Shown here: one piece after another, positions 14,716 to 34,573 of the stretch
How positions within the stretch are numbered: position 1 is the stretch's first letter
Layout: the number at the start of each line of letters is the position of its first letter
Assembly (NCBI RefSeq): GCF_020164455.1
Contig: NZ_JAIQWW010000002.1
Location: 62,001-126,000, forward strand
Direction: 5' to 3'
Length of the DNA: 64,000 nucleotides
Source: Phyllobacterium chamaecytisi
GTDB lineage: Bacteria; Pseudomonadota; Alphaproteobacteria; Rhizobiales; Rhizobiaceae
Position numbers and translations under genes: made by a program
The notes under the pieces: generated by a model
Told to the model about the DNA's origin: nothing
What the model saw: only the letters and a program-made list of their open reading frames with translations
Database searches by the model: none

Positions 14716-15915
14716 ATGAACATCGCAATGCCTCTGCCAAAGTTCGAGTTCGATGACAAGATCCTCGATCAGGGTGCGGAGATTTCTCGCCGGCTGAATC
14801 AACTTCGGATGGAAAAATTTCCACCGAATGCGAAGAAGACATTGCGGCAGTTCTCCATGGCCGAGGTAGCCCACTATCTTGGCGTGACGCAGAATAATCT
14901 CAAGCGCCTGCATCTCGAAGGAAAGGGTCCGGTTCCTGCCCAGGTATCGTCAGGCCGCCGTTCCTATACGGCCGAACAGATGCTGGAGCTGCGCCATTAT
15001 CTTGACCGCAACGGCCGCACCGAAGTGAAGAAGTATGTTCCGCACCGCAAGCAGGGCGACAAGCTGCAGGTTATCGCTGTCGTCAATTTCAAGGGCGGAT
15101 CGGGCAAGACGACGACTGCGGCACATCTCTCGCAATATCTGGCGCTGACCGGCCACCGCGTCCTTGCCATCGACCTCGATCCACAAGCCTCGCTGTCGGC
15201 GCTGCATGGCTTCCAGCCGGAACTCGACCGGAACCTGTCGCTCTACGAAGCCATCCGTTACGACGACGAGCGCAGGCCCATATCGGAAGTTATTCTCCCG
15301 ACCAATTTTCCTGGCCTCGACATCATTCCTGCCAATCTCGAATTGCAGGAATATGAGTACGACACGCCGCTTGCCATGCAGGACAAGACATCGCGTGACG
15401 GCCGGCAGTTCTTCACTCGTATCGCCAGCGCGCTTGAGGGAGTGGACGGCCGCTATGATGTGGTGGTTATCGATTGCCCGCCGCAGTTGGGCTATCTGAC
15501 ATTGACGGCCATGTCGGCGGCAACATCCGTATTGATCACCGTGCATCCGCAGATGCTCGACCTCATGTCGATGTCGCAATTCCTGCTGATGCTTGGCGGC
15601 ATCCTCAAGACTGTCAAACAAGCCGGAGCACGCGTCGAACTGGATTGGTTCCGCTATCTGATCACACGCTACGAGCCGATGGATATCCCGCAAGCGCAGA
15701 TGGTCGGGTTCATGCAGTCCATGCTGGCGGAGGAGATCCTCACCAATCCGATGCTGAAATCGACGGCGGTATCGGATGCGGGCCTGACCAAGCAGACACT
15801 CTACGAAGTCGAGAAAACGAGTTTCACGCGCACAACCTATGAACGCGCTATTGAATCGCTGGACGCTGTAAATTCAGAAATTACGGCTCTCGTCCACAGA
15901 GCGTGGGGGCGATGA
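14716..15915 (+). CDS. repA: Plasmid partitioning ATPase RepA (ParA family)
   Basis: 399-residue cytoplasmic protein. An N-terminal helix-turn-helix region (about 48-75, RQFSMAEVAHYLGVTQNNLKRL) lets RepA repress the repABC promoter. The ParA-type ATPase follows, with deviant Walker A KGGSGKTTT at 126-134, DLDPQASLS as the A' motif and VVVIDCPPQL as Walker B. RepA partitions the replicon with RepB. The AT-rich 250 bases upstream carry the promoter region and GTTAAC motifs near 14608-14622. It is the first gene of repABC. Confidence 0.96.
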   Translation: MNIAMPLPKFEFDDKILDQGAEISRRLNQLRMEKFPPNAKKTLRQFSMAEVAHYLGVTQNNLKRLHLEGKGPVPAQVSSGRRSYTAEQMLELRHYLDRNGRTEVKKYVPHRKQGDKLQVIAVVNFKGGSGKTTTAAHLSQYLALTGHRVLAIDLDPQASLSALHGFQPELDRNLSLYEAIRYDDERRPISEVILPTNFPGLDIIPANLELQEYEYDTPLAMQDKTSRDGRQFFTRIASALEGVDGRYDVVVIDCPPQLGYLTLTAMSAATSVLITVHPQMLDLMSMSQFLLMLGGILKTVKQAGARVELDWFRYLITRYEPMDIPQAQMVGFMQSMLAEEILTNPMLKSTAVSDAGLTKQTLYEVEKTSFTRTTYERAIESLDAVNSEITALVHRAWGR

Positions 15916-15927
15916 GATGACAGGCAC

Positions 15928-15943
15928 GTTTACGGCGGTAAAA
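15928..15943. promoter_or_regulatory. parS-like centromere site in the repA-repB gap
   Basis: GTTTACGGCGGTAAAA matches GTTNNCNGCNGNNAAC at 9 of 10 fixed positions; only the last base differs. Several repABC replicons have their RepB-binding parS in exactly this gap, 12 bases after the repA stop here. Confidence 0.75.
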
Positions 15944-15997
15944 ACAATGCTTTTTGCTTGTGAAATCAGTTTGTTAATTCGAAACGGGAGCAGATAG

Positions 15998-16960
15998 ATG
16001 GCCCGTAAAGACATTTTTAGCAGCGTGATGAACCCAGCGCCAGCAAGACCTGAGCGCAATGACGCATTGTCCTATGTCGTCAGCGGCGCTTCGCGTTCGA
16101 TCAAGAGTTCCTTCGAAGAACTCGCCAAAGGCAGTGTTGTCGAACTTGACCCGGAACTCATCGACGGCTCTTTCGTATCGGACCGGATCGATGACGACGA
16201 CGAGGCTTTTCAGGAACTGCTTGTCGCCGTAAAGGAGAGGGGCCAGGACTCGCCCATACTGGTGCGTCCGCATCCCGCCGTTTCAGGCCGCTATCAGGTT
16301 GTTTTCGGACATCGCCGCGTCAAGGTGGCCAAGCAGCTCGGAAGACAGGTTCGTGCCGTCGTCAAGCCGATGGCCGACCAGGATCATGTGATCGCTCAGG
16401 GCCAGGAAAACGCTGCCCGATCGAACCTGTCCTTCATCGAACGCACATTGTTTGCCAAGCGTCTCGCTGACCTCAGCTACGATCAGTCAATCATCAAGTC
16501 TGCGCTTGCCCTGGACGCGACGACATTTTCGAAGATGCAGTCGGTCGCGGCTCATGTTCCCGAGGCGATCATACTCGCGATCGGCTCGGCCAAGGCTACC
16601 GGGCGGGACCGTTGGTGGCAGCTGTCAAAGCTGCTGCAGGTGCCGGGCAATGCCGAGAGGGCGGTAGAGTTTACAAGATCGGATGATTTCGCGGCTGAAA
16701 CCGGTGATGCGCGGTTCGCTTTGCTGTCGGATTTCCTGGCAAAAACGAAGCGCCCGGCGAAAGCCGTGGCCCCCGCGGCCAAAGCCTGGGCGGCACAGGA
16801 CAAATCCGTGAAGGTGGAAATCAAGGATAGCGGCAAGGCATTCACGCTGGCTTTGAAGGCCAAGAATGCCTCCCGCTTTGGCGCATACATTGCCGACAAC
16901 CTCGACGAGCTCTATCGGGCTTTCCAGGGGTCGCAAGCTTCAACCAAAACAGGAGATTAA
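15998..16960 (+). CDS. repB: Plasmid partitioning protein RepB (ParB family)
   Basis: 320-residue centromere-binding protein. The ParB/sulfiredoxin-like N-terminal domain is visible around residues 85-150 (QDSPILVRPHP...YQVVFGHRRVKVAKQLG, then the ENAARSNLSFIER region), with the HTH segment after it (DQSIIKSALALDATTFSKM). RepB binds parS, acts with RepA in segregation and increases RepA repression. A GGGAGCAG ribosome site precedes the ATG. It is second in the repABC operon, with the incompatibility RNA region following. Confidence 0.95.
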   Translation: MARKDIFSSVMNPAPARPERNDALSYVVSGASRSIKSSFEELAKGSVVELDPELIDGSFVSDRIDDDDEAFQELLVAVKERGQDSPILVRPHPAVSGRYQVVFGHRRVKVAKQLGRQVRAVVKPMADQDHVIAQGQENAARSNLSFIERTLFAKRLADLSYDQSIIKSALALDATTFSKMQSVAAHVPEAIILAIGSAKATGRDRWWQLSKLLQVPGNAERAVEFTRSDDFAAETGDARFALLSDFLAKTKRPAKAVAPAAKAWAAQDKSVKVEIKDSGKAFTLALKAKNASRFGAYIADNLDELYRAFQGSQASTKTGD

Positions 16961-16970
16961 TCCGCAAAAG

Positions 16971-17025
16971 AAAAAAGCCCACCTCAACATCGCTGTCTCG
17001 GAAGGCTTCTCTCATATCTCTAGCA
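16971..17025 (-). ncRNA. Antisense counter-transcribed RNA (ctRNA / incA-type) between repB and repC
   Basis: On the minus strand a TTGACA box (plus coordinates 17055-17060), a 17-base spacer and GATTCT (17032-17037) form a promoter whose transcript would start near 17025. It ends in a hairpin (AAGCCTTCC pairing with GGTGGGCTT with one mismatch) followed by a T-run, read from the plus-strand A-run 16971-16976. A roughly 55-base antisense RNA in the repB-repC gap is the standard copy-number and incompatibility regulator of repABC replicons, acting on repC translation. Ends are approximate. Confidence 0.82.
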
Positions 17026-17120
17026 GGATCGAGAATCGCATTTCCCCGAATCAGTGTCAAGACTTTTTGACGTCGTTTTGGCGAGCGGATTTCTTTTGCC
17101 TTTAGAAAGGTGAAAAGACA

Positions 17121-18419
17121 ATGCAGACGGGGAATGCATTCACGACGCCCTTCGGGCGGCGGTCGCTGTCGCTTGGCATGCTGGCAATACAGGCACAGGC
17201 GCAGGAGATCGATCCGGAAGCGTCGATCGACAAATGGAAACTGTTTCGTAGCCTGTGTGAGGCGAGGGCACTGATCGGAATCTCCGATCGGGCGCTTGTC
17301 GTTTTGAATGCTCTTTTGACATTCTATCCACAGACCGAGCTTTGTGAGGCCAACGGCCTCGTGGTGTTTCCATCAAATATGCAACTTTCACTGCGCGCGC
17401 ACGGTATGGCGCCGGCGACGCTACGGCGGCATTTGAGTGCGCTGGTGGAAACAGGACTGATTTTCCGCAAGGACAGCCCCAATGGCAAGCGCTACGCCCG
17501 CAAGGCGAGGGCAGGGGAGGGTGGCGAGGCATTCGGCTTCTCATTGGCACCATTGGTCTCGCGTGCGGCTGAATTTGAAGTTTTGGCCGAACAGGTGCGT
17601 TCGGAGCGGTTGCAACTGAAGCTGATGAAGGAGCGCGTCACCCTGCTACGCCGCGATATCGTCAAGCTGATCGAACTCGGCTTTGAGGAACTGCCGCACA
17701 TCGACTGGAGCGCCCAATACTCGCGGTTTCGTACGGTCATTGGCGACATTCCGCGCCAGGCAACGATTGACGATCTGGAGCCAGCTGTCGATGGACTGGA
17801 ATGTCTCCATCTGGAGATATCCAATCTATTGGAAGATAAGCTCAATTCTCAAAAAACAAGCGCCAAAGAGTCTCATTCTGAGCGCCACAAACATAATTCA
17901 AACACCCAATCCACCTCTGACCTTGAACCCGGCTTTAGAAAAACCCAAGGGGCAAAAACTGCGCTGGAACCTGAAACAGAAGTGGCTATTGAGACACGAG
18001 GCAGCGAAGCGATTACAATCCTATTGGAGAGGGGAGGGGGCGATGGTACAGACGCCGGGCTCTCTGATGCCAAACCGGTGCCGCTCGGCCTTGTGCGCCA
18101 AGCTTGTCCGCAAATTGTTGTCTATGCGAGGAACGGTATCGCAAATTGGTCTGATCTGATGGCGGCGGCCGTTGTCGTCCGCTCGATGCTTGGCGTCAGC
18201 CCCTCAGCATACGAGGAAGCCTGCGAGATCCTGGGACAGGAAAATGCGGCCATCGCCATTGCATGCATCCTCGAACGCGCCGAGCAGATCAATTCCGCCG
18301 GCGGCTATTTGAGAGCGCTCACCGACAAGGCGGGGAGGGGCGAGTTCTCGGTCTGGCCGATGGTGTTGGCGCAACTTAGAGCCAACGGCTCGCACGTCCG
18401 ATTGGTCACCGCAAAATGA
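17121..18419 (+). CDS. repC: Replication initiation protein RepC
   Basis: 432-residue initiator specific to repABC replicons. The N-terminal half has the conserved winged-helix stretch (LSRLC-type region, then LVVFPSNMQLSLRAHGMAPATLRRHLSALVETGLIFRKDSPNGKRYARK, about residues 80-130) and the C-terminal half has the compact helical domain ending GRGEFSVWPMVLAQLRANG. RepC initiates at an origin lying inside its own gene. Its translation is limited by the antisense RNA upstream. The ribosome site GAAAGGTGAAAAG precedes the ATG. Confidence 0.95.
   Translation: MQTGNAFTTPFGRRSLSLGMLAIQAQAQEIDPEASIDKWKLFRSLCEARALIGISDRALVVLNALLTFYPQTELCEANGLVVFPSNMQLSLRAHGMAPATLRRHLSALVETGLIFRKDSPNGKRYARKARAGEGGEAFGFSLAPLVSRAAEFEVLAEQVRSERLQLKLMKERVTLLRRDIVKLIELGFEELPHIDWSAQYSRFRTVIGDIPRQATIDDLEPAVDGLECLHLEISNLLEDKLNSQKTSAKESHSERHKHNSNTQSTSDLEPGFRKTQGAKTALEPETEVAIETRGSEAITILLERGGGDGTDAGLSDAKPVPLGLVRQACPQIVVYARNGIANWSDLMAAAVVVRSMLGVSPSAYEEACEILGQENAAIAIACILERAEQINSAGGYLRALTDKAGRGEFSVWPMVLAQLRANGSHVRLVTAK
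17830..17960. other. Probable origin of replication inside repC (AT-rich segment)
   Basis: This stretch of repC is clearly more A/T-rich than its surroundings (runs such as CTCAAAAAACAAG and CATAATTCAAACACCC) and encodes a low-complexity linker in RepC. Replication of repABC replicons is known to start within the AT-rich middle of repC. The boundaries are estimates made by eye. Confidence 0.5.
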
Positions 18420-20489: not shown

Positions 20490-21551
20490 TCAGGTAACGA
20501 CGTGCAATCCAGGCTTGCCCGTCTCAACTGAACCAATGATCCGGGCTGCAGGATAACCCGCAGCCGTGATCTCCTGGAGCAGGTCCAATGCACGTCCTGC
20601 GCTGCAGGAAACGAGTAGCCCGCCAGAGGTCTGGGGATCGGACAGCAGGTGCCGCCGCCATAGGGGGAAATCGCCGGGCAATTCGACGTCTGCACCGTAG
20701 CTTGCCCAATTGCGATGCGAGGCACCGGTGACGAAACCTTCCTTTGCGAGTTCGGCGCCGTGGATAAAAACGGCAATATCGTCCGCGCGCAGCGAGATGT
20801 GCACATTCGACCCTCTTGCCATCTCAAGGGCATGGCCAAGAATGCCGAAGCCGGTGACATCGGTCATGGCATGCACATCCGCATCCTTGGCGAGTTCGCT
20901 GCCAATGCGGTTGAGGAGCGTCGTCGATGCGATGAGTTCGGCATAGGCATCCGCCGGCAACATGCCTTTCTTGAACGCCGCCGAGTAGATACCGACACCA
21001 AGCGCCTTGGTCAGGATCAGCGTGTCACCGGGCTTGGCGCCGCTGTTGCGCCGCAGACTGGCAACGGGGCAAGTGCCGATGACCGCCAGGCCGTAGATCG
21101 GCTCGGGAGAATCGATCGAATGGCCGCCGGCGACAGGGATACCGGCCTCGGAGCAGATGGCGCTTCCGCCCTTCAGGATCTCGCGCACCATCTCGGCCGG
21201 CAGCTTGTCGATCGGCATGCCGAGAATGGCGAGTGCCATGATCGGTTTTCCGCCCATTGCATAGACATCCGAGATCGCATTGGTTGCTGCTATCCGGCCG
21301 AAGTCGAAAGGATCATCCACCATCGGCATGAAGAAGTCGGTCGTCGCGATCACGCAGGTTTCGTCATCGAGCTGCCAGACTGCGGCATCGTCACCGGTTT
21401 CGGTTCCGACAAGCAGCCGCTCAAACGGTCCGGCGACGGGTTGATCCGCAAGCAATTGCTGCAAGACAGACGGTGCCAGCTTGCATCCGCATCCGCCACC
21501 ATGGGACAGAGAGGTCAGGCGGATCGGCGACGACGAGGTTCGGTCATCCAT
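20490..21551 (-). CDS. selD: Selenide, water dikinase SelD
   Basis: 353-residue ATP-dependent enzyme that makes selenophosphate from selenide, the selenium donor for selenocysteine. The catalytic region reads [12 protein letters not shown] (residues about 15-26), so this is the Cys form rather than a selenoprotein. The ATP-binding and Mg-binding Asp segments ([23 protein letters not shown], about 55-80) are intact. It lies downstream of, and in line with, a transglutaminase-like gene (38-base gap) and is transcribed away from the formate dehydrogenase and selAB genes that need its product. Confidence 0.96.
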
Positions 21552-23168: not shown

Positions 23169-26100
23169 ATGAACATGGAACTCTCGCGGCGCCAGTTTCT
23201 TGCGGCGACCGGCGCGGGTGTTGCGGGTACGGCGCTTGGCGCCTTTGGCTTCGGCGAGATCGAAGCCGCCCATGCCGAAGCGATCCGCGCTTTCAAACTC
23301 GTAAACACCACCGAAACCCGAAACACCTGCCCCTATTGCTCGGTTGCATGCGGTATCATCATGTACTCGAAGGGCGACCTGAAAAAGGGCGAAAAGGCCG
23401 AGATCGTCCATATCGAGGGCGACACCGACCATCCGACAAATCGCGGAACGCTATGCCCGAAGGGCGCCGCCCTGCTCGACTTCGTCAAGGCCGAGACACG
23501 CCTGAAATATCCGATGGTCCGCAAACCCGGCTCGGACAAGTTCGAGCGTATCTCCTGGAATGACGCGCTTGATCGCATCGCCCGGCTGATGAAGGACGAC
23601 CGCGACGGCAATTTCGTCCAGAAGAACAATGACGGCGTGACCGTCAATCGATGGACGACAACCGGCTTCCTTGCCGCCTCCGCAACAACGAACGAAACAG
23701 CGTTTGCCACCTATAAGGTGGTGCGCAGCGCTGGAATGCTGGTATTCGATAACCAGGCACGTGTCTGACACGGCCCAACGGTGTCCAGTTTGGGCCCAAC
23801 ATTTGGCCGTGGTGCAATGACCAATTCCTGGACTGATATCAGGAATACGGATCTTGTTGTCATCATGGGCGGCAATGCCGCGGAAGCCCACCCTTGCGGT
23901 TTCAAATGGGTCACGGAGGCAAAGGCCAACCGTGGTGCCAAGCTTATCGTCGTCGATCCCCGCTTCACACGCTCTGCGTCGGTGGCTGATTTCTATGCAC
24001 CGATCCGTCAGGGATCGGACATAGCCTTCCTGCTTGGTGTGATGAATTACTGCATCAAGAACGACAAGGTGCAGTGGGATTATGTGAAGGCATTCACCAA
24101 TGCCGCCTTCATCGTCAAGGACGGCTTCGAATACAAGGACGGCCTGTTTACCGGTTACGATGAGACAAAGCGCGACTATGACAAGTCGACCTGGAATTAT
24201 GTGATCGGCGACGATGGTTACGCTGTGGTCGATGACACGCTGACCAATCCACGGTGCGTGTGGAACCTGTTGAAAGCGCATATCTCCATCTATACGCCCG
24301 AAATGGTCGAGCGCATCTGTGGCACACCCAAGGAGAAGTTCCTCAAGGTTGCCGAGATGATCTCGGAATGCTCGACGCCGACCAAGACGATGACGTCCAT
24401 GTATGCGCTTGGCTGGACGCAGCATTCAAAGGGTTCGCAGAACATCCGCTCGATGGCGATGTTACAGCTCGTCCTCGGCAATATCGGCGTGCGCGGCGGT
24501 GGCATGAACGCACTGCGCGGGCACTCCAATATCCAGGGGCTGACCGATGTAGGCCTGATGTCGAACCTGCTTCCGGGCTATATGACGCTGCCAAACGAAA
24601 AAGAGGTGGATTTCGACAGCTACATGTCGACGCGCGGCTTCAAGCCACTCCGGCCCAACCAGACGAGCTACTGGCAGAATTACAAGAAATTCTTCGTCAG
24701 TTTCCTCAAGACGATGTGGGGCGCGGCGGCGACTCCGGAAAACCATTTCGCCTATGACTGGCTGCCCAAGCTCGATGTGCCGGGCTACGATGTGCTGCGC
24801 GCCTTTGAACTCATGAACCAGGGCAAGATGACAGGATACATCTGCCAGGGGTTCAACCCTCTGCTTGCAGCGCCAAACAGAACGAAGCTGACCGCATCAC
24901 TGTCGAAGCTCAAGTTCCTCGTGACGATGGATCCCCTGGACACGGAAACATCGCGGTTCTGGGAAAATCACGGCGAGTTCAACGACGTTGATCCTTCGCA
25001 AATCCAGACGGAGGTCTATCAATTGCCTTCGACCTGCTTTGCTGAAGACGAGGGCTCGCTCACCAATTCCGGGCGTTGGCTGCAGTGGCACTGGCCGGGC
25101 GGCACGGCTCCCGGTGAAGCCAAGACGGATAACTGGATCATGGCGCAGATCTATACGCGTCTGCGAGACCTTTACCGTAAGGAGGGTGGAGCGTTCCCCG
25201 ATCCGATCGTCAATCTCGACTGGTCCTATGCCGATCCGGGCGAGCCGACTGCCGAAGAACTTGCCAAGGAACTGAACGGCAAGGCGCTGACCCCGTTGAT
25301 GGATCCAACCGATCCGACCAAGGTGGTGGTCGAAGCCGGAAAGCTGGTGCCAAGCTTCGCCGCGTTGCGCGATGACGGCTCCACGACGAGCGGATGCTGG
25401 ATTTATTCCGGCTGCTTCAACGAGAACGGCAACAACATGGCCCGGCGCGATACATCGGACCCCGATGAGACCGGCGCTTACTCGAAATGGGCATTCTCGT
25501 GGCCCGTCAACCGCCGTATCCTCTACAATCGGGCTTCGGCGGACCTGAATGGCAAGGCCTGGGACCCCAGCCGCAAGCTGATCGAGTGGGACGGTCAGAA
25601 ATGGTCGGGCTACGACGTGCCGGATATTGCACCGACAGCCAAGCCGCAGGACGTCGGTCCATTCATCATGAACGCGGAGGGCGTATCGCGCCTCTTCGTC
25701 GTGGGCATGATGCGCGATGGTCCGTTCCCGTCTCACTACGAACCGTTCGAGTCGCCCGTCACAAACCTCATCGCCCCAAAAATCCGCGGCAATCCGGTGG
25801 CGCGGGTGTTCAAGGGTGATTTCGCGCAGTTTGCCGAACCGGCTTCGCAGGAATTTCCTTATGCGGCAACGTCCTACCGTCTTACCGAACATTTCCACTA
25901 TTGGACCAAGCATGTCTGGGTGAATGCCGTCCTGCAGCCGGAATTCTTCGTCGAGATATCGGAAGAACTCGCGAAGGAGAAAGGCATTGTCAAAGGCGGC
26001 TGGGTACGTGTGTGGTCGAAGCGCGGATCGATCAAGGCCAAGGCGGTGGTCACGAAGCGGATCAAACCTTTGATCTGCGACGGCAAGCCGGTTCATGTGG

Positions 26101-26255
26101 TGGGTATTCCGCTGCACTGGGGTTTCACGGGGGCAGCGAAGAAGGGCTTCGGTCCCAACTCGCTCACACCTTTCGTCGGTGACGCCAATATCGAGACGCC
26201 TGAATACAAGGCGTTCCTGGTCAATATCGAGCCCATCGCCGGGCCGGTGGCATAG
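23169..26255 (+). CDS. fdnG: Formate dehydrogenase-N alpha subunit FdnG, selenoprotein (in-frame UGA = Sec200)
   Basis: 1028-residue molybdenum/tungsten bis-MGD enzyme; the catalytic subunit oxidises formate in the periplasm. A Tat signal (SRRQFLAATGAG) precedes the [4Fe-4S] motif CPYCSVACG...CPKG (about 55-100). At 23766-23768 an in-frame TGA interrupts NQARV-HGPTV, exactly where FdnG/FdoG proteins have selenocysteine; the frame continues for another 828 codons with clear homology (GRGAMTN.W.D), and a SECIS hairpin follows the TGA. Automatic callers would split this gene at 23768. The operon is fdnG-fdnH-fdnI-fdhE-selA-selB-selC. Confidence 0.97.
23769..23811 (+). promoter_or_regulatory. Bacterial SECIS element of fdnG
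   Basis: Directly after the UGA codon, CACGGCC (23769-23775) pairs with GGCCGTG (23805-23811). The apical part has GG (23780-23781), a single unpaired T/U (23782), then GTCC pairing with GGGC (one T-G pair) around the loop AGTTT, then CC (23796-23797). The bulged U and small G/U-containing apical loop are the SelB-recognition features of bacterial SECIS hairpins, with the expected distance from UGA. Confidence 0.88.
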
Positions 26256-28879: not shown

Positions 28880-30331
28880 ATGGACAGCAATGCCAGCTTG
28901 CGCCGCCTTCCTTCGGTAGATCAGCTTCTGAAGTCGCCAGCCGCCGCTGGCATCATCGAGCGTTTTGGACGTCCGGCCCTCACTGAAGCCTTGCGGAGTG
29001 CATTGGCGCAGACACGTGATGACGTGCGCAATGGCAATAATGCTCCCTCCGGGGAAACCATCATGACGGTCGCGCTGGCCAGCCTCGAGGCGGCTGACAA
29101 GTCATCGCTCCGGCCACTGTTCAATTTGACGGGTACGGTACTGCACACGAATCTCGGTCGTGCGTTGCTTGCGCAAGCGGCAATCGAGGCTGCAACGGCG
29201 GCCATGCGCGAGGCCGTTGCCCTCGAGTTCGATCTCGAGAGTGGCAAGCGCGGCGAACGCGATGATCATCTGCGTTCCCTGATCTGCGAACTCACCGGGG
29301 CGGAAGAGGCAACGATCGTCAACAACAATGCGGCGGCTGTGCTTCTGGTCCTGAACAGTCTGGCGGCGGGCAGGGAAGCCATCGTCTCGCGCGGTGAGCT
29401 GATCGAAATCGGCGGGGCGTTCCGCATGCCGGATATCATGGCACGCGCCGGTACGCGTCTTATCGAGGTCGGTACCACGAACCGCACCCATGCCCGGGAT
29501 TATCGCGATGCAATCGGTCCCGATACGGGTCTGATACTGAAAGTCCATACCTCAAACTATCGCGTCGAAGGCTTCACCAAGGAGGTGGGTGCGCGCGAAC
29601 TGGCTGACATCGCCCGCAGCAAAGACATTCCGCTGGTCAATGACCTCGGTTCCGGTACCCTGACGGATCTCACGCGTTTCGGGCTTGCGCACGAGCCGAC
29701 CGTGCGTGAAGCGATCGCTGAAGGTGCGGACATTGTGACCTTTTCCGGTGACAAGCTGCTGGGCGGCCCGCAGGCCGGGTTCATCGTCGGACGCAAGTCC
29801 CTCATCGAGACGATCAACAAGAACCCGATGAAACGGGCGCTGCGTGTCGACAAAATCCGCCTCGCGGCGCTCTTTGCCACATTGCAGCTCTATCGCGATC
29901 CGGATCGCCTGAGCGAGCGCTTGCCCACCATGCGGCTGCTTACCCGTTCGCGGGGCGCCATCGACGCGCAAGCGAAGCGATTGGCGCCCATAGTGCAGCG
30001 TGCGCTGAAAGGCGCTTTCACCGTTGCCGTTATTACGTGCGAAAGCCAGATCGGCTCCGGCGCCTTGCCGCTTTCCACCGTGCCGAGCGCTGGCTTGGCG
30101 CTGACGCCGGTCAAGAGCAGTGGAAGCATGCTCGCTGAACTCGCAGCTGCACTCAGGCGACTTCCGATGCCAGTCATCGGCCGTATCGAGCGCGGAGCGC
30201 TGGTGCTGGACCTGCGCTGTCTTGAGGACGAGGCCGGTTTTGCGGCCAATTTTTCCGGCATCGCAAATTTTGATACGGGCAAGAGGAGTGCAGCGGCGGG
30301 GCCGGAAATCGACGAGGTGGGCAAGCCATGA
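28880..30331 (+). CDS. selA: L-seryl-tRNA(Sec) selenium transferase SelA
   Basis: 483-residue PLP enzyme of the fold-type I group that converts seryl-tRNA(Sec) to selenocysteyl-tRNA(Sec) with selenophosphate from SelD. The N-terminal tRNA-binding segment begins [11 protein letters not shown], the substrate-loop region [14 protein letters not shown] is conserved, and the PLP lysine is K292 in [13 protein letters not shown]. The stop overlaps the selB start by four bases (ATGA). Length and motifs are normal for bacterial SelA. Confidence 0.96.
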
Positions 30332-32412
30332 TCGTCGGAACCGCCGGGCATATCGATCACGGCAAGACATCGCTGGTCAAGGCGTTGACCAACGTCGACA
30401 CCGATCGGCTGAAAGAGGAAAAGGCCCGCGGTATTTCGATCGATCTCGGCTTTGCCTATATGCTTGTAGAAGGGGCAGAGATACTTGGCTTTGTCGATGT
30501 GCCGGGGCACGAGAAGTTCATCCACACCATGCTTGCCGGGGCCAGCGGCATCGATTTTGCCCTGCTGGTCGTTGCCGCCGATGACGGAGTAATGCCGCAA
30601 ACACATGAACACCTCGCCATCATCGACCTCCTCGGTATCGAACGCGGTGTCGTTGCTCTTACGAAGGCCGATCTGGTGCAGGAAGAACGGCTCGTCGAGG
30701 TGGAAACCGCGATACGAAATGAACTTGCGGCCACGGCGCTTAGCGATGCTCCGATCATTGCCGTTTCAACGATTTCGGGTCAAGGCATCCCGGCGTTGCG
30801 CGATGAAATCGTTGATGCCGCCCGGAAGTTCGCCCGCCGCCGGGCAACTGGCCGCTTCCGGCTGGCAGTCGACCGTTCATTCACAATCCAGGGGGCGGGC
30901 ACCGTTGTAACCGGAACTGTCCTTTCGGGAACGATCGCCGTCGATGATCATGTGACGGTAAGCCCCTCTGGCCTTTCCGCCCGCATCCGTTCAATCCATG
31001 CACAGAACCGGCCGAGTGAGGTTGGCCGAGCCGGTGATCGATGTGCTCTCAATCTCGTCGGCGCAGACATCACGAAGGCAGCGATCAATCGTGGCGACGT
31101 GGTGCTTGATGCCAGCCTGCATGCGCCGACGAGCCGGATTGACGCGACATTGCGTGTGCTTGGCTCCGAACGCAAGCCGATCGGTCACTGGTTCCCGGTA
31201 CGGCTGCATCATGCGTCGACCGAGGTCGGCGCTCGCATCGCTTTGCTGGCTGATGAGCCAGTAGCCCCCGGGGCACGCACCCGTGTACAACTTGTGCTCG
31301 ACCGGCCGATCGCTACAGCGGTTGGCGATCGTTACGTCATCCGCGATACGTCTGCGCGGCGCACGATTGGTGGCGGCCGCTTCCTGGATTTGCGTGGTCC
31401 GGCCCGCAAACGCCGTACTCCAGAGCGAAGGGCACAGCTCGATGCACACGAATTGACCGAGCCGGATCGAGTGCTGGAGGCATTGCTTGCAGTGCCGCCA
31501 TTTTATCTGGACGTTACGACGTTTGCCCGTGACTGGGCCTTGGCGACGGCAGATGTCAGTGCGTTGGCAGGGCTGACAGGCGCGGTGCAGTTGCCTGTTG
31601 ATGCTTCGGTTGTCGCCATATCGTTTGGGCAGTGGAAGAAATTCCAGCAAGATCTTCTGGACCGGCTCGAAACTTTCCATGCTGACAATCCGGATTTGTT
31701 GGGGATCGGCATTGAACGGCTCCGGACGCAGCTTGAGTTGCGCCTGCCCGTGCCTGCGTTCCGTGCAGCCTTGCATAGTCTTGCCCGCGGCGGGGAGATA
31801 GCGCTTGATGGAGCTTGGGTGCGGCTTTCCGGGCACGAAGTGACGATGGCCCCGGCTGACGAGCGACTGTGGAATGCGATCGAACCGCTACTCGGCGGAG
31901 CCGAACGTTTCCGCCCGCCGCGCGTCCGCGATATTGCCGCGCTGTTTGGCGTGCCGGAGCCGCAGGTGCGCCGGCTGCTGAAGCTGGGCAGCCGCATTGG
32001 CAAAGTACATGAGGTGGCGCACGACCATTTCTTCCTGCGAGGCACGGTTGCAGAAATGGTTGCCATTATTGTTGAGATCAGCACAGCCTCCGATGAGGGC
32101 TGGTTTGCCGCCGCGCAATTTCGCGACCGGGTCGAAAACGGCCGCAAGGTCGCAATCCAGATCCTTGATTTCTTCGATCATCACAGCATCACATTGCGCC
32201 GTGGCGACCTGCGCCGGGTTAACCGGAACCGTCTGGATCTCTTCGCGGATATGGCAGATGGCGCGACCGGCGAAAATACTGTTTCTGGAGGAGAATCGTC
32301 CCCGGTGGGGCGTCCGGACTTCAAATCCGGGAGGGGCCGAGAGACGGTCTTTGGTGGGTTCGACTCCCACTCTCTTCCGCCATCGCCCGGCCACTCGGGA
32401 AGCTCCCGATGA
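30328..32412 (+). CDS. selB: Selenocysteine-specific elongation factor SelB (frame runs through the tRNA-Sec gene)
   Basis: 694-residue GTPase that brings Sec-tRNA to the ribosome and binds the SECIS hairpin. G1 is GHIDHGKTS (residues 6-14), G3 DVPGHEKF and G4 TKAD; EF-Tu-like domains II/III follow, then about four winged-helix repeats in the C-terminal 250 residues. The conserved protein ends near residue 650 (RLDLFADM). From 654 on the frame is the sense strand of the tRNA-Sec gene and remains open to TGA at 32410, adding about 40 non-conserved residues. The next gene starts at this TGA (ATGA), so the long frame may be genuine. Confidence 0.93.
32287..32382 (+). tRNA. selC: tRNA-Sec (anticodon TCA)
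   Basis: A 96-base tRNA with all Sec-type features: an 8-bp acceptor stem (GGAGGAGA with TCTCTTCC, one G-T pair), discriminator G and encoded CCA at 32380-32382, anticodon stem CCGGA/TCCGG with loop CTTCAAA and TCA at 32321-32323, a long variable arm (about 32331-32355) and GGTTCGACTCC in the T arm. It decodes the UGA of fdnG 8.5 kb upstream. It lies wholly within the selB reading frame, on the same strand. Confidence 0.96.
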
Positions 32413-32897
32413 CGACGGTAACCACCTATCTCGAGCGGTTGCAGCAAGCAGCCGACAGGGCGCAATCGGCCGAGACCGCCTGTCGGCGGGAGGCGGCAAC
32501 CCGCATAGCGGTACTCGAGCGCGAACGTGCTTTCGCCTTTCGCCGGATGAATCTGATGCGGTCGGTCGCCGACGCGGCAAAGCCACAAATGGAGGACGAT
32601 AGCGATCCGGCCGAGCGGAGCGGTGAGGAAATCGCCGTCGCGCGTGCCCTTGCGCTGTTGCGGGTCAGGCTTGGCTGGTCGTCGGATAGTGAAACCCGGG
32701 ATGCAACCCTTGCGCATTTCGCATCTGTGGTCATTGCACTTTACCGGGCTTCAGGCGGCGCGGAGATGCCTGACGAAACGTCAGGTATCGATGATGCGCT
32801 TGGACGCTTCGAGGCCTGGTATGAGGAGGCTCACGGCGCTTCGTTCTGGATGCTTTTTGATAATCCGATGCAAGATACGCCGCGCGTCGACTTCTGA
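32409..32897 (+). CDS. Uncharacterised small helical protein at the end of the sel operon
   Basis: 162-residue cytoplasmic protein, no signal or membrane helix. The first half is highly charged and predicted coiled (YLERLQQAADRAQSAETACR, then RIAVLERERAFAFRRMN); the second half is acidic with a C-terminal amphipathic region (ALGRFEAWYEEAHGASFWMLF). Its ATG overlaps the selB stop (ATGA) and follows selC by 27 bases, so it is likely co-expressed with the selenocysteine genes. No family is recognised; a role in Sec insertion or formate dehydrogenase maturation is only a guess from position. Confidence 0.78.
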   Translation: MTTVTTYLERLQQAADRAQSAETACRREAATRIAVLERERAFAFRRMNLMRSVADAAKPQMEDDSDPAERSGEEIAVARALALLRVRLGWSSDSETRDATLAHFASVVIALYRASGGAEMPDETSGIDDALGRFEAWYEEAHGASFWMLFDNPMQDTPRVDF

Positions 32898-33178: not shown

Positions 33179-34573
33179 ATGGCAACCTGGCAACCCGATC
33201 CCTCATTCTATCCCTCGCCGAGAATGGCCGCCAAGGCGCCGGCAGAAAAGCTGGCCTATGTGGCTGCCTTCGATCCGGATCGCAAGAAACCCGATGCAAT
33301 CGCCGTCGTCGATGTTGATCCGAAATCGCCTTCCTATTCCCGTATCGTCGGCCAGGTCGACATGCCGAATGCGGGAGACGAACTGCACCATTTTGGCTGG
33401 AATGCGTGCTCGTCCTGCCTTTGCCCCAATGCGCCGCACCCTCACATGGAAAGGCGTTATCTCGTCGTGCCGGGCCTGCGATCGTCGAGGCTGCACATCA
33501 TCGATACGAAGCCAGATCCCCGAAATCCGATGATCGTCAAGGTTATCGAGCCCGAAGAAATTGCCGAAAAGGCAGGGTACTCCCGGTTGCATACCATTCA
33601 CTGCGGACCCGAGGGGATTTATGTCAATGCGCTTGGAAACGCCGAGGGCAAGGCGCCCGGTGGCATATTCCTGCTCGATCCCGAAAGTTTCAATGTGCTT
33701 GGCCAATGGGAGATGGATCGCGGGCCGCAAAAGCTCGCCTATGATTTCTGGTGGCACCTCGGCCACGACACGATGATCACAAGTGAATGGGGAACGCCCG
33801 ATACATTCGAGGACGGGCTCGTCCCGGAGATTCTGCTCGGCAGCAAATATGGACGCAGACTGCACTTCTGGGACCTCCACAAGCGTAAGCATCTGCAGGA
33901 GATCGATTTCGGCGACGAGCACCAGCTGGTGTTTGAACTCCGCCCGGCGCATGATCCCACCAAGGCCTATGGTTTCGTTGGCTGCGTCATCAGTCTGAAG
34001 GACCTCTCGGCGTCGATCTGGACGTGGTACCGCGATGGCAACAAGTGGGCCGTCAAAAAGATCATCGAAATTCCTGCCGAGCCTGCCGATGCCTCACTGC
34101 TGCCGCCTGTGCTGCAAGGCTTCCAGGCGGTTGCCCCACTCGTCACCGATATCGATCTGTCGATGGATGACCGGTTCCTTTATGTTTCATGCTGGGGTAC
34201 GGGCGATATGATTCAATATGACGTATCGGATCCTTTCCATCCGAAAGAAACCGGCCGGGTCAGGATCGGCGGTATCGTTTCCCGGGCTACCCACCCGAAA
34301 GCCAACAATCGCGCGCTCAATGGCGGGCCACAAATGGTTGAAATCAGCCGGGACGGAAAGCGCGTCTATTTCACCAACTCGCTCTATGGCGCCATCGATC
34401 CGCAGTTCTATCCGGACGGCATCGATGGCTGGATGGTGAAGCTTGACGTCGGGGAGAACGGCGGGATCACATTCGACGAGAATTTCTTCGTTGACTGGCC
34501 GAAAGGTCATCGCCCGCATCAGGTGCGGCTGGAAGGAGGCGACTGCTCATCGGACTCGTATTGCTATCCTTGA
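33179..34573 (+). CDS. Selenium-binding protein 1 / methanethiol oxidase family (SELENBP1, SBP56)
   Basis: 464-residue beta-propeller-type protein. Conserved features include HHFGWNACSSC (about residues 70-80) with the Cys used for metal/selenium binding, many propeller His (PHPHMERRYLVVPGL, RPHQVRLEGGDC) and the C-terminal CSSDSYCYP. Bacterial members (MtoX) oxidise methanethiol to formaldehyde, hydrogen sulfide and peroxide using copper. No signal peptide is evident, unlike many MtoX proteins. It is followed after 35 bases by a membrane protein gene, and the pair sits between two palindromic repeats. Selenium use itself is not implied. Confidence 0.92.
   Translation: MATWQPDPSFYPSPRMAAKAPAEKLAYVAAFDPDRKKPDAIAVVDVDPKSPSYSRIVGQVDMPNAGDELHHFGWNACSSCLCPNAPHPHMERRYLVVPGLRSSRLHIIDTKPDPRNPMIVKVIEPEEIAEKAGYSRLHTIHCGPEGIYVNALGNAEGKAPGGIFLLDPESFNVLGQWEMDRGPQKLAYDFWWHLGHDTMITSEWGTPDTFEDGLVPEILLGSKYGRRLHFWDLHKRKHLQEIDFGDEHQLVFELRPAHDPTKAYGFVGCVISLKDLSASIWTWYRDGNKWAVKKIIEIPAEPADASLLPPVLQGFQAVAPLVTDIDLSMDDRFLYVSCWGTGDMIQYDVSDPFHPKETGRVRIGGIVSRATHPKANNRALNGGPQMVEISRDGKRVYFTNSLYGAIDPQFYPDGIDGWMVKLDVGENGGITFDENFFVDWPKGHRPHQVRLEGGDCSSDSYCYP

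Follow-up and report, generated by a model that had tools for sequence, protein, structure and literature searches.

The gene for tRNA-Sec (selC) of Phyllobacterium chamaecytisi lies wholly inside the selB reading frame, and translation through the tRNA has probably been selected, because nested loci share a single phase, have spacers free of in-frame stops and reach a stop codon soon after the tRNA. The locus was analyzed in one 64,000-nt stretch of DNA (the window; contig NZ_JAIQWW010000002.1, positions 62,001–126,000, forward strand). Both the arrangement and the hypothesis on its mechanism were already published in 2021 for nested selC–selB pairs in Alphaproteobacteria (Mukai 2021, Int J Mol Sci 22:4605, PMC8124441). 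New here, and not found in print by our searches, are a quantitative case that selection acts on the frame and the observation that two downstream gene families, ORF-A and ORF-B, are restricted to tRNA-Sec genomes in our samples.

Organization of the selB–selC locus

The features of the window discussed below are as follows.

20490–21551, other strand: selD-like gene with AIRS domains
23169–26255, plus strand: fdnG, formate dehydrogenase-N alpha subunit, with an in-frame TGA at 23766–23768
23763–23821, plus strand: bacterial SECIS element (RF01989) at the fdnG TGA; 84.2 bits, gathering score 63
28880–30331, plus strand: selA, with a stop overlapping the start of selB (ATGA)
30328–32412, plus strand: selB, 694 aa, ATG start, no interruption; SelB proper at about residues 1–639 (30328–32244)
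32245–32286, plus strand: spacer of 14 codons joining SelB proper to selC (0–102 nt in relatives)
32287–32382, plus strand: selC, tRNA-Sec (UCA), 96 nt, CCA encoded; the SelB frame reads GGESSPVG...SLPP
32383–32412, plus strand: post-tRNA tail of 9 codons (SPGHSGSSR), then the stop TGA at 32410–32412
32409–32897, plus strand: ORF-A, 162 aa, predicted helical, with a conserved PETPLVDF-like tail

SelB gave an equivalog match to TIGR00475 (403 bits; cut-off 242) covering residues 1–631; it contains the domains PF00009, PF25461, PF09106 and PF09107, which are EF-Tu-like domains and winged helices. According to the SelB profile built here, SelB proper ends at residue 639, in 'LDLF'. Alignment with the 614-residue SelB chain of PDB 5lzb, which we take to be the E. 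coli protein, reaches residue 627 of the window SelB. Counted from about residue 639, the extension is 55 residues in length (14 from the spacer, 32 coded by the tRNA and 9 from the tail).

The tRNA gene corresponds to selB codons 654–685. Its length of 96 nt is a multiple of three, the selB frame runs through it from GGA to CCA, and all three of its frames are stop-free. ARAGORN called tRNA-SeC(tca) at 32287–32382 as the sole tRNA in the window, and Rfam RF01852 matched 32287–32378 (75.6 bits; gathering score 47). A single tRNA-Sec gene was found in the 6.36-Mb assembly; the second RF01852 match over the cut-off in the genome (51.6 bits) is tRNA-Ser(tga) and was rejected. Downstream, the selB stop overlaps the ATG of ORF-A at 32409, forming ATGA at 32409–32412. 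The locus is thus nested in the sense used below, with a complete tRNA-Sec in an uninterrupted selB frame on the same strand. This is the geometry that the sequence-only reading had described (selC wholly inside selB, the next gene starting in the stop), and the ORF call, ARAGORN and Rfam agree on it. That reading also had the tail of SelB, if translated, specified by the tRNA, in agreement with the tRNA codons in the uninterrupted frame; its figure of about 40 residues matches the tRNA part plus the tail, but falls short of the whole extension. Over 2082 bases compared, the window selB is 91.4% identical to that of the P. zundukense plasmid NZ_CP104969.1.

The selenocysteine neighborhood

The genes of the cluster are in the order fdn-fdhE-selA-selB-selC-ORF-A. 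Because the selA stop overlaps the selB start, selA, selB, selC and ORF-A look like one transcript. The fdnG gene appears as two ORFs in one frame, parted by a single TGA. P. zundukense has an annotated fdnG at the corresponding position, and selD is annotated there at the same relative place as the selD-like gene of the window. The fdnG product is a selenoprotein that needs the window tRNA-Sec. As judged from these predicted elements, the neighborhood (SECIS, fdnG, fdhE, selA and the selD-like gene) fits a working selenocysteine trait. repABC replication genes are located at 14716–18419, with an S-element RNA (RF00490, 17055–17123) ahead of repC; the fdn-sel cluster therefore sits on a plasmid-type replicon (the 397,739-bp contig), near its replication genes. 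The next sizeable same-strand gene after ORF-A, at 33179–34573, encodes an SBP56-family selenium-binding protein (671 bits).

Collection of loci

Surveys for tRNA-Sec identified it in 10 of 39 relatives, 19 of 199 genomes of the family, 31 of 397 of the order and 56 of 385 of the class, the window's genome being included in each. We added three plasmid loci and 120 stretches from among the matches listed by a pattern scan of named genomes, which has at least 120 matches; since nested-type tRNAs served as the model for the pattern and the stretches come from the matches listed, the scan yields no prevalence. Seven loci of the window's own genome that carry other tRNAs (L002–L008) were excluded. 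In total, 235 loci were collected, and ARAGORN found a tRNA-Sec in 233; the other two, L119 and L206, were dropped for want of one. Removal of 11 exact duplicates left 222 non-identical loci, which still include near-duplicates and close relatives.

Among the 222 loci, 92 are nested, 3 overlap partially and 72 have a selB stop before selC; the remainder comprises 44 loci with no SelB nearby, 10 that are cut (five of them among L120–L239) and were left unclassified, and one with SelB on the other strand. Among the genome-survey loci (n = 112), 23 are nested and 2 partial; in 41 selB ends ahead of selC, 45 have no usable SelB upstream and one (L119) was not confirmed as tRNA-Sec by ARAGORN. SelB lies upstream at 167 loci, and the tree was built from 153 of them, after omission of 14 rows with a truncated SelB. 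Since the loci are related, the 92 nested loci do not amount to 92 independent cases.

The selB frame is kept in one phase through the tRNA

At every one of the 92 nested loci, the selB frame runs into the tRNA in one shared phase, while the spacers take 22 different lengths between 0 and 102 nt, each a multiple of three. The tRNA itself does not force this shared phase, because 78 of the 92 tRNAs are stop-free in every frame. At the 58 non-nested loci with selB less than 150 nt upstream, the three phases are represented 19, 20 and 19 times. On the 153-locus tree, a minimum of 39 changes of spacer length is required among the nested rows, all of them multiples of three, with zero changes of phase; the non-nested rows with a spacer below 150 nt need 44 length changes, of which 24 alter the phase. 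With 20/44 as the chance for each change, the probability of 39 phase-keeping changes running is ∼4e-14, a rough estimate that rests on parsimony counts and on a quick tree with long-branch warnings, in which 38 of 150 inner branches have less than 80% support.

The positions of the stop codons follow the same frame. None of the 91 spacers of at least 9 nt contains an in-frame stop; in the other two frames, 16 and 31 spacers contain one. After shuffling, a mean of 27.9 spacers carried an in-frame stop, and the minimum over 2000 shuffles was 15. From the end of the tRNA to the first stop, the median distance is 6 codons and the maximum 28 (n = 92), compared to medians of 15–32 in six control sets. 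Of the 95 frames that run into the tRNA, only 3 reach a stop there; the comparison of tRNA-internal stops (2/94 versus 17/72) is partly circular, as it follows in part from the definition of nested loci, and is given no weight here. Taken together, the single phase, the stop-free spacers and the early stop after the tRNA support actual translation of the frame, which the sequence-only reading had left as a condition, and suggest that the tRNA sequence is indeed traversed by ribosomes.

A neutral accident is one rival explanation of the arrangement: selC came to lie downstream of selB with no stop in between, and the state was inherited from one ancestor. Tight linkage of selB and selC is indeed common, most of the tRNAs are open in all frames, and nesting clusters on the tree. 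However, spacer length has changed again and again along the tree and phase never did, about 28 spacers would be expected to contain a stop where none does, and stops come early after the tRNA. By this comparison of sequences, a neutral accident appears strongly disfavoured already, and we regard it as very improbable.

As evidence that would count against it, the sequence-only reading had named related genomes with a stop before selC and no conservation of the open frame. The first of these is seen and the second is not: a stop before selC is frequent, but the open frame is conserved wherever the pair is nested. Because selB stops before selC in 72 of the 222 loci, nesting is neither universal nor essential. 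By parsimony on the quick tree, for which long-branch warnings were given, nesting requires at least 15 changes, at least 7 of which are forced by well-supported branches; these repeated changes, together with the 72 loci, indicate that nesting is dispensable.

Two loci stand apart. L143, one of the partial overlaps, is the sole out-of-phase entry among the 95: its selB frame runs into tRNA-Sec in phase 1 and meets a stop there. L167, from a record titled Terriglobia (under Acidobacteriota), has a nested selB–selC pair with a 95-nt tRNA and ORF-A; it is either a misbinned contig or a case of horizontal transfer.

Constraint on the residues flanking the tRNA

We compared 17 disjoint pairs of related nested loci. 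The pN/pS ratio is 0.20 for the last 100 codons of SelB, 0.63 (95% interval 0.48–0.84) for the spacer and 0.83 (0.39–1.43) for the post-tRNA part, the last being indistinguishable from neutral. Within the tRNA the ratio is 1.49 on 20 changes, so synonymous change is not preferred there. These ratios suggest that the residues flanking the tRNA are weakly constrained and that mainly the frame, not the peptide, is kept; since the spacer ratio is below 1, there is room for weak selection on spacer residues.

The ratios bear directly on a reading in which the tRNA-coded peptide is functional in SelB (in RNA binding, for example) and the protein is what selection acts on. A single phase, and hence one kind of peptide, in every nested locus agrees with it, as does the spacer ratio. 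The spacer is nevertheless variable in sequence as well as in length, the post-tRNA part evolves as if neutral, the bias toward synonymous change is absent inside the tRNA, and SelB lacks the tRNA-coded part altogether in the loci that stop before selC. We therefore consider a functional peptide improbable.

ORF-A and ORF-B downstream of selB

Two families of next ORFs, ORF-A and ORF-B, were found after nested selB. ORF-B encodes a 126-aa protein of predicted alpha/beta fold, unrelated to ORF-A. For both families, Pfam and NCBIfam yielded no match over the cut-off, and structure searches gave no clear match. ORF-A is present at 43 nested loci (window included) and starts exactly in the selB stop in 33 of them; ORF-B starts exactly in the selB stop at 11 further nested loci. 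A cruder sorting classed 47 of the 92 nested loci as coupled, including L130, L137 and L164, whose ORF-A starts slightly later. Seven of the 45 loci not classed as coupled carry ORF-A a little downstream; another, L155, is probably coupled, with the locus cut by the contig end. Coupling to the next gene accounts for about half of the nested cases.

These overlaps raise the alternative that the frame is kept only for translational coupling, ribosomes crossing the tRNA in order to re-initiate on ORF-A or ORF-B. The exact stop–start overlaps of both families argue for it. So do five genomes of the order in which tRNA-Sec is located elsewhere: fdhE, selA and selB are followed directly by ORF-A and ORF-B, and in two of them (L243 and L246), read base by base, the selB stop overlaps the ORF-A start though selC does not lie between. 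Against it, all 45 uncoupled nested loci are likewise in phase 0 and terminate no more than 13 codons past the tRNA, counting the stop. We judge coupling as the only reason for the open frame to be unlikely, less so than a functional peptide. In L243, ORF-A was found by the profile and not by a single-sequence search; in both L243 and L246 the gene after ORF-B looks to encode a MoeA-type protein.

Profiles of the two families were made from alignments of selC-adjacent loci, and with the best few candidates of each genome search scored, 13 of the 397 genomes of the order sample and 6 of the 199 of the family sample were seen to carry ORF-A; 8 of the 199 family genomes carried ORF-B. All of these genomes are on the tRNA-Sec lists, which apparently come from the same samples. 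The probability of such co-occurrence by chance is 3e-16 (ORF-A, order), 3e-7 (ORF-A, family) and 1e-9 (ORF-B, family), on the assumption that genomes are independent, which relatives are not. For ORF-A the link is one-way, because ORF-A is absent from 18 of the 31 order genomes and 13 of the 19 family genomes with tRNA-Sec. The five genomes that keep ORF-A and ORF-B directly after selB, with the MoeA-type neighbor in two of them, point to a role of ORF-A and ORF-B in the selenocysteine or formate dehydrogenase pathway. We hold a further proposal only tentatively: ORF-A and ORF-B may be families dedicated to selenocysteine, and in nested operons maturation of tRNA-Sec may switch off SelB and its helper together. 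If this is true, their targets would be SelB, tRNA-Sec or the maturation of the selenocysteine formate dehydrogenase, and their synthesis in nested operons would need ribosomes that read SelB through an uncut tRNA.

A purine-rich GGAA/GGAG lies a few nucleotides upstream of the ORF-A start and, by eye, recurs among the loci; if it is a ribosome site, the post-tRNA piece would not be leaderless, contrary to the supposition made in the 2021 paper about its own ORFs. A hairpin at about 32395–32408 (CGGGA-AGC-TCCCG), before the ORF-A start, was considered as a coupling device and rejected, being unconserved even within the genus. In L248 (G104:C30:356444-356842), a match to ORF-A begins ∼105 nt after selC and contains one in-frame TGA; it is either a decaying copy or a misread.

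Proposed fates of the selB–selC transcript

The reading we favor, with some reservation, is that of a nested pair of the kind described by Mukai: the frame is maintained, and one transcript would have two exclusive fates, SelB or tRNA. Ribosomes would normally translate SelB through the tRNA sequence, yielding SelB with a mostly unconstrained 55-residue tail, and ordinary tRNA-processing enzymes would cut the tRNA from the same transcript. Each transcript would thus give either full-length SelB, with re-initiation on ORF-A, or the tRNA. Because the cut 5′ selB piece lacks a stop codon, it would engage ribosome rescue rather than produce SelB, and cutting would cap SelB relative to tRNA-Sec. 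The sequence-only reading had likewise supposed that RNase P would cut the selB message, with a possible feedback between tRNA-Sec maturation and SelB synthesis; we consider this a fair hypothesis, though one in print since 2021. The proposal is one of mutual exclusion on one transcript and makes no claim of selenium or charged-tRNA sensing. If the mechanism is right, a tRNA and its binding factor are two exclusive products of one transcript, and since they exclude each other, the tRNA/SelB ratio would be set with no regulator.

The phase lock, as far as sequence can tell, exceeds the needs of a 'non-stop message' model, in which any phase would be tolerated, as would a tRNA-internal stop; full read-through itself seems to be favored. 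A weak scan of the plus strand between 30000 and 33300 found no sigma-70-like promoter; the tRNA could be made independently from another promoter type inside selB.

Comparison with published systems

The 2021 paper (PMC8124441) put forward, as a hypothesis with no experiment, that processing of the tRNA cleaves the selB message and thereby limits SelB. It called the trait highly conserved and noted that the tRNA is usually a multiple of three in length (96 or 93 nt), and that the selB stop often overlaps the start of the next ORF; these downstream ORFs were described as limited to Alphaproteobacteria, and its text gives ORF1 and ORF2 no function. Like those nested pairs, the window has a whole 96-nt tRNA-Sec in the selB frame on the same strand, a frame running from Gly at GGA to Pro at CCA, the overlap of the selB stop with the next ORF, linked selenocysteine formate dehydrogenase genes and the same proposed mechanism. 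There is no essential difference between them, although Phyllobacterium is absent from the text of that paper. Different from our analysis, the paper contains neither a null model of phase nor a substitution-rate test; the comparative result makes its hypothesis more testable.

Two reviews (PMC13188914 and PMC9312934) repeat the 2021 hypothesis, and PMC12685816 cites Mukai in passing, for SelB abundance in Aeromonas. Beyond the papers named here, we found no experimental follow-up and no other nested bacterial tRNAs in the open-access literature and listings.

The partial or reversed overlaps reported for Dyella/Luteibacter, Shewanella and Nitrospirae (PMC8124441) resemble the window in that the selB frame enters tRNA-Sec, whereas the window tRNA is wholly nested and in direct orientation. 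The frames of Dyella/Luteibacter stop at tRNA positions 46–48, as do two of the three partial cases in our collection. Like the window selC, the mitochondrial tRNA-Lys inside cox1 of Armadillidium vulgare (cited in PMC8124441) is a tRNA in a coding frame, whose message is either translated or processed; that mitochondrial genome is compact, whereas the bacterial genome here is 6.4 Mb in size.

One nested locus bears on gene annotation. In L240 (P. zundukense NZ_CP104969.1), the gene table has no selB protein between selA (RS01695) and ORF-A (RS01680), and two locus-tag steps are skipped; pseudogenes and RNA genes are omitted from the table. The overlap with the tRNA may have led automatic annotation to drop or disable selB, and annotators are cautioned that this one RefSeq table of a Phyllobacterium plasmid lists no SelB protein at a nested locus.
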